Positions 7,408 to 58,685 of a stretch of DNA of 64,000 nt are shown here, piece by piece. The DNA comes from Mycoplasma sp. Lineage in GTDB: Bacteria; Bacillota_I; Bacilli_A; Mycoplasmatales; Metamycoplasmataceae. The notes beneath the pieces were generated by a model. The model was not told the origin of the DNA and made no database searches. It worked only from the letters and a program-made list of their open reading frames with translations. Position numbers and translations under genes: made by a program. The stretch covers positions 124,001 through 188,000 of the forward strand of contig JAMPIX010000002.1 in NCBI GenBank assembly GCA_024721275.1, given 5' to 3'. Positions within the stretch are counted from its first letter, which is position 1. Each line of letters opens with the position of its first letter.

Positions 7408-8187
7408 ATGATAAAAAAAGTAGAAGAATGAAAAAAGAAATATAATCCAAAAAAAATGGAAAATATTTCTGGATTGACAAACGAGTCTTTTATAATTACT
7501 TTCGATGATAAAAAAATGTTTTTACAATTTAAAAAATTTAATGGTTTTAATCATAAAATTGATTATCAAATATTAAATGAATTTGAGCACGTTCCAAAAT
7601 TAATTGAAAGTAAAGAAAATTATAATTTATGAGAATTTATAGATGCATCAAAAGATGACATTTCTAAAGAAGATAAGATTATTAGAGCTTGTACAATATT
7701 AAAAAAACTGCATAAAAGTAAATTGAAATTTCCTGAAATTGATATAAAGGAAATAATAGATAATTACATTGAATTAGCTAACAAATTAAATGAAAATGTA
7801 ATGCCTAAAGAAATAAACAATATGTATAGTGAAGCAATAGATAGATATAAAAAATTATCAAAAGATACACCTATTCATTATGATCCCTGATTGCTAAACT
7901 TTATTTTTACAAATGAAAAAGATTATTTAATTGATTTCGAATTTGCATGTATGGGAGATAGATATTGAGATATAGCTTATATAATGGAAGGATCTCAATT
8001 GAACGACAAAGAAAAAGAATTTGTATTAAAACAATTTGGAAAATTAGATTATAAAAAGCTTGATGATGCAATATTCTTGGTTAACTACATTACTTTAGTT
8101 TGATTGTATAAACATGAAAACTATAATTTATTTCCACATCAAAATATTATTAATAGATTAAATGAAAAAAGTAATTTAAACAACTAA
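7408..8187 (+). CDS. Choline/ethanolamine kinase-like phosphotransferase (APH fold)
   Basis: A 259-residue protein of the aminoglycoside-phosphotransferase/choline-kinase superfamily. The catalytic loop 'HYDPWLLNFIF' (H-x-D-x4-N) is followed by the Mg-binding 'LIDFEFACMGDRYWDIAY', with D-F-E and the conserved Asp of the D-x3-D-x-A motif. The N-terminal nucleotide-binding lobe ('GLTNESFIITFDDKKMFLQF') fits the LicA-type choline kinases common in mollicutes. A likely role is phosphorylation of choline or a related amino alcohol for lipid head groups; this is inferred from the family and the substrate is not proven. The 3' end overlaps the convergent ABC permease gene by 12 bases. A second APH-type kinase domain occurs at 30487-31248. 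Confidence 0.72.
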
Positions 8188-30486: not shown

Positions 30487-31848
30487 TTATATTAATTCAT
30501 AATTATTTAATAAACGTTTTTTTATAGTTCTCATTTCTCTTGTTTGATCAACAGATAAAACTCATAGAAGTGAAAAAGTATTTACTAAAAATTTGTAATC
30601 TTTTAGTTTTTCTTTATCAAGATTTTGGCTTTTAAAATCAACACCTTCTGTAACGAAAATATGTGCAAAATCGAAATATTCCGAATTCATTCTAACTCAC
30701 TCAAAATCAATTAAAATAACTTCTTTGCCATTTCAAAGCATATTTTTTCCACTTATATCATTATGTGAAATGACTAATTTTTCATCTTTATATTTTGTTA
30801 ATAATTCATTATATTTTGATTTTAATTTTCCTTTATATTTATTTTGAGTTGATAAATTATCTTCTAGTTTTGAAAAGAAATCATCATATTTATGTCAATC
30901 ATGTTTTTCAACATTATCAACTTTAATTTTATGAAACTCTATTAATGATTTAAATAAAGAATCTTCTTTTTGTTTTGTTCATTTGGTAATAATTTCGCCT
31001 TTAATTCATTTTTTTAGCATTATTCCTGAATAGTTATCATAATAAAAACTTTCTTTATCATGAATTGCGGAATATATTCTACTTTCATTATCTCAATTAG
31101 CCATTTTTGTATGAGGAATTCTTATTTGTCATCAAATGTCATTAACCATAACTTTATATGATGAATTTGCAATACCTTTATAATATTTTTTTACTTTTTG
31201 AATATCCTTTTCCTGAATTTTAAGCTTCTTACAAATATAGTTATTCATAATTTTTCTTTCTGAAAATAATTGCAAATTATTTGAAAATAAAATATATTTC
31301 AAATTATTTATTTTTGAAAATGATCCAACAAATGCTGCAATTGAAACACCTAATGTTGCTGTTGGTATTATTCAATTTATTGCCATCGATGCAATAAAAC
31401 CAGTTTCTCAAAATCAGATACCAGATAATGTTAATGAAACGAATTTTAAAAAGAATGAAATAAACATCATTAGAATAATTCACAAATAATTTGTCTTAGA
31501 TGTTGTTTGAAAATTAATAGCTGGAAGAATCATAATTATTGTAGGAAAATAATAGTCAAAGAAAAAAGATAAAAATCCTCCTGGTCCTAAAGTTATTTGG
31601 CCCGTTGCAAATCAAACTCACGGAGTTATTAACACAACTGCTATTGATGATCTAAAGTTTAAAAATAAAACAAGCATTATTAAAACAACATTTCAAATCT
31701 CTATAACTGCAAATCCGCCTGGTCCAGGAATTATTCTGTCGAAAAATTTTAAAACAGTTAATAAAGCAACTGTAATTCCCATTTGAGTTATTTCACTAAT
31801 AGATAATTTCTTAAAAAAAATATTATCTTTTATTTTGCTCTTTTTCAT
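30487..31848 (-). CDS. ThiT-like thiamine transporter fused to an APH-type kinase
   Basis: One uninterrupted 453-residue frame (UGA = Trp). Residues 15-185 are about six transmembrane helices resembling the ECF S component ThiT: 'EITQMGITVALLTVLKFF' at the start, the amphipathic 'LSFFFDYYFPTIIMILP' (compare 'LLDY..AF' in ThiT) and 'FLKFVSLTLSGIWFW' (compare 'LRF..H..SG..F'). Residues 201-453 are a kinase of the choline/aminoglycoside phosphotransferase fold, with catalytic 'SHNDISGKNMLW' (D364, N369) and Mg-binding 'VILIDFEWVRMNSEYFDFAH' (D381). A TPP riboswitch stands in front. I infer uptake of thiamine with immediate phosphorylation. M201 could be an internal start, but no stop separates the parts. 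Confidence 0.8.
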
Positions 31849-31855
31849 TTAGATA

Positions 31856-31995
31856 TGTTCCTGCTTAATTTTGTTTTTAAATAGGGAACAGAAGTTAAAT
31901 TGTATCTTGTTACGCTAGTATTAACTAGATCAACTGATAAGAGTTCATCTCAACCACAAATGTAGTGCCTCTGTACAACCTATTTTAAAATTATA
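31856..31995 (-). promoter_or_regulatory. TPP riboswitch with promoter and translational switch
   Basis: An extended -10 (TGT-TATAAT, 31990-31995) precedes an aptamer at about 31894-31983. It shows the THI-box elements in order: P1 arms TTGTA/TACAA, GAGGCAC, TTGAGATGA (consensus CTGAGA), ATCAGTTGATCTAG and TTAATACTAGCGTA (consensus GATCTGGATAATGCCAGCGTA). Downstream, TGTTCC (31885-31890) can pair with GGAACA (31856-31861), which covers the AGGA Shine-Dalgarno of the gene at 31848. No U-tract follows, so thiamine pyrophosphate should block translation rather than terminate transcription. Confidence 0.88.
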
Positions 31996-32117
31996 ACATT
32001 TGATAAAAAAAGAAATAAAAAAAGGCTTTTTTGCTTATAAATAGTAATGTTATTTTTTACATTTTAAGTAAATAATATATTTAATTAATAATTCCATACA
32101 ATAGAGTTTTAATTATA

Positions 32118-57392: not shown

Positions 57393-57836
57393 TTATAATT
57401 TATTTTGCAAATTATTTAAAAGTTTATATAAAGACTTTGCTGCAAATTTACCTTCGTCATTTCTATTTTTTGTTTTTAATATTACCATTACATCATCTAT
57501 TGTTTCAGCTTCAATAACACCTTGCATTACTGGAGTGTTATATTTAATAGATAATTCAACCATTTTTTCCCTTGTTATTCTAGACATATTTTTTGCATAA
57601 ACAGTTGTTTTGCCACCTATTATTGATCCAATTACTATTACACCAATAATATCTTTATCTTTAGATAAAAAATGATTAAGTGTAAATGGAACTTCTCACA
57701 TTCCTGGAACATCTATTGTAGTTATAGAATTAAATCCATCTGACTTTAATTGATCTATTGTTGATGTTTTTAATTTTTCACCTATTTTTTCAATAAAATT
57801 AGCATTAATTACTAATACTTTTTGATTTTGCTTCAT
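57393..57836 (-). CDS. Lumazine synthase-like protein (RibH) lacking catalytic residues
   Basis: A 147-residue homologue of 6,7-dimethyl-8-ribityllumazine synthase. 'VLVINANFIEKIGEKL', 'DVPGMWEVPFTL' (compare V-P-G-A-x-E-I-P), 'IGVIVIGSIIGGKTTVY' (compare G-x-V-I-R-G-x-T-x-H) and 'YNTPVMQGVIEAETIDDVM' align with RibH throughout. The catalytic His of the R-G-x-T-x-H motif is Val and the Arg is Gly, so normal catalysis is doubtful. No other riboflavin biosynthesis gene is present here. It overlaps ribU by 32 bases and so is under the FMN riboswitch. A flavin-binding, storage or carrier role is a guess. Confidence 0.75.
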
Positions 57837-58518
57837 TACTTATTTCCTTTACTCCTTTTTTAACTTCTTTATATGTTCAAATACGAGCAACCACAACAAA
57901 TACAACTGAAATTATAGAAAATTTAGCAAGATTAGCAACACCAAAAGCTACAAACATTCCTAGTCAATAATTACTAATACTGAAAAATGCCACTGAATAA
58001 ACATAAGAATATCCATCTATAGCATTTGAAATAGATGGAGATTTTATTACATCTAATAAATATCAATACATAGGTGTAAATAAAACAGAATTTAATAATG
58101 GTGCAATTATTGTAATTAATAGAGTAGATATCAATGTAGAAATAATAAAATTATTTTTTAAACTAAGAGATGTTGATTTCTTGAAATGCTTATGCAATAC
58201 AAAAAACATTACACAAAAAATAAGACCACATAAAAATAAAACAAAATTATTTCAAATTCCTAATGTAGAATATCCAAACGATCCAATCGCTGGTCCAATA
58301 GCAAATCTTAATACTAACAATAACAACGCTCATTTGAAATCAAGTATATATAAAGTTATCATTATAAAAATTAATGATAGATTTAAATTCATATACACTT
58401 CACCAAATGGCATAAACTTTTCTAAATATTGAAATAGCAATACAAGAGAAAGCATTAATCCAGTAAGTGCAATCTTAAAATTAAGATTGTTAAAATAGAT
58501 GTTTCTTTTAAAATTCAT
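57805..58518 (-). CDS. ribU: Riboflavin transporter RibU (ECF S component)
   Basis: A 237-residue membrane protein with about six helices: 'IALTGLMLSLVLLFQYLEKF', 'MNLNLSLIFIMITLYILDFK', then 'WALLLLVLRFAIGPAIGSFG' and three more. The 'R-F-x-I-G-P' type loop and overall plan fit RibU/ECF S components; the FMN riboswitch directly upstream makes riboflavin the likely substrate. It needs an energising EcfA-EcfT module from elsewhere. No clear Shine-Dalgarno precedes the ATG at 58518. The 3' end overlaps the RibH-like gene. UGA codons are Trp. Confidence 0.85.
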
Positions 58519-58553: not shown

Positions 58554-58685
58554 AAATATTTTATTCCATCCGGACTATACCGTCGGTTTGGGAATCTAAC
58601 CCAATCTGCTTTTCAGCTCGTAGACTTTACTACCGATTGACGAATTTCGCGTCACCCTTAAAATATTTAACTTGTAATTATTATA
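58554..58685 (-). promoter_or_regulatory. FMN riboswitch and promoter for ribU
   Basis: Minus-strand TATAAT (58680-58685) is followed by a complete RFN element, 58668 down to 58554. P1 arms AAATATTTTA and TAAAATATTT pair perfectly. Inside are AGGGTGACGCGAAATTCGTC, CGGTAGTAAAGTCTACGAGC, GCAGATTGGGTTAGATTCCC, and AACCGACGGTATAGTCCGGA followed by TGG, all diagnostic of the FMN aptamer. No T-tract follows; the palindromic P1 strand can pair with a later AAATATTTTG, so translational control or an AU-rich switch is possible. Confidence 0.93.

Follow-up and report, generated by a model that had tools for sequence, protein, structure and literature searches.

We describe a single gene of a Mycoplasma sp. 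in which a ThiT-like ECF S component is joined in frame to a kinase of the APH/choline-kinase fold, behind a TPP riboswitch. It lies in a stretch of 64,000 nucleotides that was analysed as a whole and is referred to here as the window (GCA_024721275.1, contig JAMPIX010000002.1, positions 124,001 to 188,000); its features are listed in Table 1. The gene is probably a TPP-repressed thiamine acquisition gene that couples import to phosphorylation. When TPP is scarce, the leader fold would leave the ribosome site open and the fused protein would be made; when TPP is bound, the aptamer would fold and the ribosome site would be hidden. The membrane half would bind thiamine outside the cell and import it with a shared EcfAA'T module. 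The tethered cytoplasmic kinase half would then use ATP to phosphorylate the hydroxyethyl group of thiamine, which would trap the vitamin and start (or complete) its conversion to TPP. That both halves act on thiamine, that the product is ThMP or TPP and that trapping takes place are our inferences.

Table 1. Positions of the features discussed (window coordinates unless a locus is named).
Feature	Position	Strand	Basis
Fused gene of 453 codons (genetic code 4), joining ThiT-like S component and APH/choline-kinase-fold kinase	30487..31848	-	open frame and family matches
ThiT-like S component, residues 15-178, long membrane helices in ThiT fold	31315..31806	-	profile, model and residue comparison
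Linker, residues 179-200	31249..31314	-	in frame, without stop
Kinase domain, residues 201-453	30490..31248	-	family matches, motifs, model
Met201	31248-31246	-	aligns with start of stand-alone kinases; weak AGAAAG 5' of codon
TPP riboswitch aptamer (THI box, RF00059)	31889..31982	-	cmscan 58.0 bits, E 9.1e-9, full-length model 1-105
Extended -10 element TGTTATAAT	31990..31998	-	pattern match directly 5' of aptamer
Anti-aptamer pairing, ACAGAGG (31974-31968) with CUUCUGU (31894-31888)	31888..31974	-	minimum-energy fold
Expression platform, UGUUCC (31890-31885) with GGAACA (31861-31856), covering Shine-Dalgarno AGGA (31862-31859)	31856..31890	-	fold with aptamer enforced
DUF402/NtdP-like genes	L142 1445-2083, L153 2974-3585, L064 978-1550, L151 12-575, L076 1579-2190		L142 by family search, others by sequence resemblance

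A preliminary description of this DNA had proposed a THI-box aptamer with its own promoter and a switch that masks the Shine-Dalgarno sequence, and the leader bears this out. In the covariance check suggested at the time, the aptamer scores above the RF00059 gathering score of 54.3 bits, and it is the sole TPP riboswitch in the genome (whole-genome search, E 0.001 or better). The extended -10 element is one of four sites matching TGNTATAAT on both strands of the whole window, and the other three each lie a short distance upstream of an open frame. A scan gave no consensus -35. From the position of this element, the transcript is predicted to start near 31983, roughly where the aptamer begins. 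The unconstrained minimum-energy fold, taken as the ligand-free state, contains the anti-aptamer pairing and leaves the Shine-Dalgarno sequence open, with unpaired probabilities of 0.89, 0.72, 0.74, 0.81 and 0.98. With the Rfam aptamer pairs enforced, it is paired with UGUUCC and these values fall to 0.41, 0.00, 0.00, 0.08 and 0.09. The fold energy of the leader is ordinary (z about -1), and the switch thus rests on specific pairings, not on stability. The modelled pairings are the arrangement expected of translational repression by TPP, and we regard the switch as predicted.

By sequence comparison and structural modelling, the membrane half is a divergent ThiT-type S component, likely specific for thiamine. 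Taken alone, it reaches 17.5 bits (E 0.0048) against Thia_YuaJ (PF09515), short of the cut-off of 25.8, and a family search with the fused protein gave no match to TIGR02357 (ThiT). A clade profile built from ten related S components of the same family, however, matches the Lactococcus lactis ThiT structure 3rlb at 6.5e-20. The two halves of the protein were modelled separately with AlphaFold (pLDDT 85, pTM 0.81 for the membrane half), and in a Foldseek search the top five hits to the membrane-half model are all ThiT, with TMq up to 0.70. The earlier assignment as ThiT-like therefore stands on clade profile and fold, but not on the single sequence, which stays below the Pfam cut-off.

Roles in thiamine contact have been described for W34, E84, H125 and W133 of ThiT (PMC5037267). 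Within the contact set W34, E84, H125, W133, Y146 and N151, four positions are kept or conservatively replaced in the fused protein (F46, D98, W147 and N158 for W34, E84, W133 and N151, respectively) and two are lost (H125 to L139, Y146 to A153); ThiT Y85 is kept as Y99. The pyrimidine-side residues D98, W147 and N158 are retained and the thiazole-side His125 contact is replaced. The two changed pocket residues could mean that the compound taken up by the membrane half, and then phosphorylated by the kinase, is a precursor or analogue of thiamine such as HMP or the thiazole alcohol, and in one relative, G304, a related S component lies in a TPP-riboswitch operon with tenA/thiD/thiM/thiE look-alikes. 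We consider this very unlikely, given that the pyrimidine-side residues are kept and that a precursor route to TPP would depend on ThiE and ThiL, the latter not found in this genome.

Import through the membrane half would draw on the general ECF machinery, and the genome encodes an EcfT (match 1.4e-44) with two EcfA-type frames upstream, so that EcfA and EcfA' are present. The window also contains an FMN riboswitch (58554-58668, minus strand, 96.7 bits) directly 5' of a frame of the MPN527 family (57805-58518, minus strand; 151 bits, cut-off 80). This putative ECF S component is probably the riboflavin importer of the genome. In families f6, f9 and f5, ThiT-like proteins (L143-L148, L150, L152) carry an additional N-terminal region of about 100-190 residues, apparently membrane-spanning, that precedes the S-component fold.

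The kinase half matches Choline_kinase (PF01633; 2e-9, 37.6 bits) and APH (PF01636; 1.9e-6, 28.3 bits) above cut-off, and its AlphaFold model has a pLDDT of 92. It contains the motifs H362-x-D364, N369 and D381-F-E together with E255; D364, N369 and D381 are conserved in 20/20 aligned kinases. The earlier identification of residues 201-453 as a phosphotransferase, for which these three residues had been named, is thereby upheld. The further assignment to the YcfN/ThiK type is not: the score of 29.4 bits against a TIGR02721 cut-off of 299.45 led us to reject this equivalog, and the nearest solved fold is that of the choline kinase LicA. At the beta-3 position, where a Lys usually anchors ATP, the fused kinase has R243 and the usual Lys is absent. 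Among the 20 aligned clade kinases this position is Arg in 14, Lys in three and Gln in three.

Choline and thiamine are alike in carrying a hydroxyethyl group close to a quaternary nitrogen. The nearest solved relatives of the kinase half, in fold and in sequence, are choline kinases, with pneumococcal LicA first, and many genomes carry members of the same kinase family at sites distant from thiamine genes. Both observations would suit a choline, ethanolamine or other small-alcohol kinase that is merely co-regulated with the transporter and has no trapping role. Set against them is the repeated linkage of the family to TPP-riboswitch loci in several other genera. Furthermore, a separate LicC-LicA fusion on another contig is the better choline candidate in this genome, which makes choline phosphorylation less likely as the main role, and we judge this alternative improbable.

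The LicC-LicA candidate (G000 contig 2, L160 2755-4434, minus strand) is a protein of 559 residues with nucleotidyltransferase and choline-kinase domains, and adjoins an EamA permease; the two have the appearance of a LicC-LicA fusion accompanied by LicB. The window itself encodes another APH/choline-kinase-like protein, 259 residues long (7408-8187, plus strand). It scores 53 bits against ycfN_thiK, below cut-off, and resembles a different subfamily that adjoins the fused-type kinase in four genomes (G230, G196, G295 and G007). This protein could be a candidate for a second phosphorylation step. Genera g3 and g9 have a kinase of double length, 450-510 residues (L092 5786-7198, L093 2049-3581, L097 3288-4706, L104 2267-3655). 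Most of the proteins examined resolve into a tandem of two kinase domains from different subfamilies; in G021 and G048 the gene is convergent with the CypI operon.

The preliminary description had suggested looking for the same fusion in other mollicutes. None was found in the order, either with the S-component profile over 320 genomes or with the whole protein over 298, and a scan of genome contigs with the single fused protein returned no relative; the fused form is thus seen in one genome only. What was found instead are unfused pairs, in which S component and kinase are neighbouring genes, in seven genomes (G252, G304, G305, G306, G313, G265 and G273). The pairs span two families, with G265 and G273 in a different family from the other five. 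In 7/7 the S component is the first gene; six of the pairs overlap and use different frames, and the G265 genes abut and share one frame. The nearest relative is G252, Candidatus Mycoplasma mahonii OP267, which is the sole match in the kinase pair alignment. The kinase tree places the S-linked kinase of G252 as the sister of the fused kinase (support 93/64), with long branches.

A TPP riboswitch precedes the pair in 6/7 genomes. It scores 63.2 bits in G273 and 60.9 bits in G265; in G252, G304, G305 and G306 the scores are 46.9-52.3 bits, below gathering, with E 2.2e-8 or better. Upstream of the G313 pair none was found, even with a permissive search. The fusion probably originated from an ancestral overlapping pair, S component then kinase, of the kind still present in these relatives. 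G304 has a second TPP riboswitch, followed by a ThiT-like gene and then by tenA/thiD/thiM/thiE look-alikes recognised by sequence inspection (L069 2107-5403, plus strand). Such a salvage-type operon is unusual for a mollicute, and the contamination of this bin is 4%. In several genomes a DUF402/NtdP-like phosphatase gene repeatedly adjoins the S component or the kinase (Table 1).

In a pair of genes that overlap out of frame, the arrangement of most of the unfused relatives, one indel could mimic a fusion. The gene might then be an assembly or indel artefact that hides two overlapping genes, and Met201 could still initiate a separate kinase; judged from the sequence around this codon, a separate kinase product is possible. 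We attach little probability to an artefact. The frame, proposed earlier as a single one, is indeed continuous over 453 residues in code 4, with 16 TGA codons read as Trp and zero stops across the 22-residue linker. The rest of the window holds 69 frames and is 96% coding, with no obviously broken gene, and its one apparent gap holds a complete folD-like frame. With the other genes of the window intact, the fusion is unlikely to stem from a random indel.

The kinase family is also found beside a different thiamine transporter. In G289, G293 and G187 its gene stands last in a p29-p37-p69 (CypI) operon under a TPP riboswitch, and in G270 it is an inner gene of such an operon; these operons belong to two genera other than that of the window. 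The G270 kinase (L066 734-1903, minus strand) is flanked by the genes for the ABC ATPase and the permease and has about 190 extra N-terminal residues with no Pfam match. Across f1 and f3 genomes the family is widespread at loci remote from thiamine genes, and its general substrate could therefore differ.

The genome of the window is 83.5% complete, and each absence from it is provisional. CypI occurs in 113/135 genomes of the family. It was not found in the window's genome, nor in G304-G306, G193, G230, G196, G307 and G313, all of which have an S component instead; G252 has both. TPK was found in no genome of the window's family and in no genome with an S-kinase pair, and is common among those genomes of family f6 that have the S component alone. 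Among S-containing genomes, S component and kinase are adjacent in 7/17 without TPK versus 0/18 checked with TPK (Fisher p 0.003, with related genomes non-independent and TPK-bearing loci only partly covered). ThiL likewise gave no match in the window's genome, in which two Transket_pyr matches indicate that TPP-dependent enzymes are present.

With neither ThiL nor TPK found, a mono-phosphorylating kinase alone would give ThMP and not the cofactor. Either the kinase itself makes TPP, or another kinase adds the second phosphate, or the gene for this step is missing from the assembly. The first case would make the kinase half a thiamine pyrophosphokinase, which forms TPP directly from thiamine in a single step, or an enzyme acting on ThMP, and in both forms it would replace TPK/ThiL. 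Such an activity would account for TPP-dependent enzymes in a genome where TPK, ThiL and CypI were not found, and for the ties of the kinase to TPP riboswitches in several genera. It is nonetheless unlikely, as the genome is incomplete, as the second phosphate could come from other APH-type kinases (the 259-residue protein and one at G000:C2 72868), and as one-phosphate transfer is usual for this fold. To our knowledge, the known APH-fold kinases transfer one phosphate.

Import coupled to phosphorylation of thiamine remains the best supported reading, because the TPP riboswitch, the ThiT fold and the S-kinase pairs under TPP riboswitches elsewhere all point to it, as does the same kinase family in TPP-regulated CypI operons. 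It also gains from the fact that no other recognised enzyme for thiamine phosphorylation was found and that a separate choline-kinase gene exists. The transport-and-trap device envisaged in the preliminary description is therefore supported by riboswitch, fold and recurrent gene pairs, but membership in YcfN/ThiK is not, and the description did not consider that a kinase adding one phosphate would stop at ThMP. The main cautions against this reading come from residue comparison, namely the loss of the His125 and Tyr146 pocket residues and the Lys-to-Arg change of the kinase, the latter tempered by the fact that most clade kinases share the Arg.

Many mycoplasmas use TPP without a recognised thiamine pyrophosphokinase. 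According to a metabolic model of the minimal cell, a TPK-less mycoplasma that could not grow on TPP would have to contain a kinase yet to be identified (PMC6609329). The fusion and its two-gene relatives offer a concrete candidate for this kinase, and the fused protein may fill the missing step toward active vitamin B1 in these bacteria. A bolder version of this idea would be that the S-component-fused APH-type kinase makes TPP or an obligate intermediate during entry, in place of the CypI importer and TPK/ThiL, and that its family is the missing thiamine-phosphorylating enzyme of TPK-less mycoplasmas. We put this forward tentatively, with more doubt than confidence. The fusion also lends itself naturally to the question of how cargo passes from an S component to an enzyme.

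In agreement with the preliminary description, which knew of no such fusion, our search, which covered the open literature, gave no example of an ECF S component joined to a metabolic kinase, and within this scope the protein would be the first of its kind. The same search gave no description of mollicute S-kinase gene pairs, and the paper on Ca. M. mahonii makes no mention of thiamine. S-component-like folds fused to signalling histidine kinases are known from the 5TMR receptors (PMC11109136). These share with the fused protein an S-component-like membrane fold followed by a soluble C-terminal domain, but are histidine-kinase receptors and not metabolic small-molecule kinases.

Among transporters, one of the closest comparisons is ThiT/YuaJ, a group II ECF S component for thiamine (TIGR02357, PF09515, PDB 3RLB). 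It resembles the membrane half in fold, in TPP-riboswitch control, in the positions of D98/Y99, W147 and N158 and in the presence of a shared EcfAA'T module in the genome. Unlike ThiT, which is a stand-alone protein, the fused protein has a C-terminal kinase, falls below the family cut-offs and has His125 and Tyr146 replaced. The CypI/p37-p29-p69 thiamine/TPP ABC transporter of mycoplasmas (PF06646; PMC4498124) is also under TPP-riboswitch control and has the same kinase family in some of its operons. It is, however, a different class of transporter, and the window's genome has the S-component route without CypI.

On the enzyme side, the kinase half shares with LicA (PDB 4R77/4R7B) and the Choline_kinase/APH families the kinase fold and the catalytic H-x-D-x4-N and D-F-E motifs. 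It differs from LicA in its low identity (~17%), its beta-3 Arg in place of Lys, its TPP-riboswitch context and its fusion to an S component. With YcfN/ThiK (TIGR02721) it has the superfamily and the expected reaction in common, but other kinases of the same genome outscore it against this model. Operons that combine a transporter with a trapping enzyme under a TPP riboswitch are already known from pnuT-tnr3 of Bacteroides (PMC5613172), and transporter and kinase are likewise encoded together under a TPP riboswitch here and in most of the unfused relatives. In pnuT-tnr3, as predicted for the fused gene, one TPP-riboswitch unit specifies an inner-membrane thiamine transporter and a thiamine-phosphorylating enzyme. 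However, PnuT is no ECF S component, Tnr3 belongs to another enzyme family, and the Bacteroides operon uses two genes where the Mycoplasma has one.
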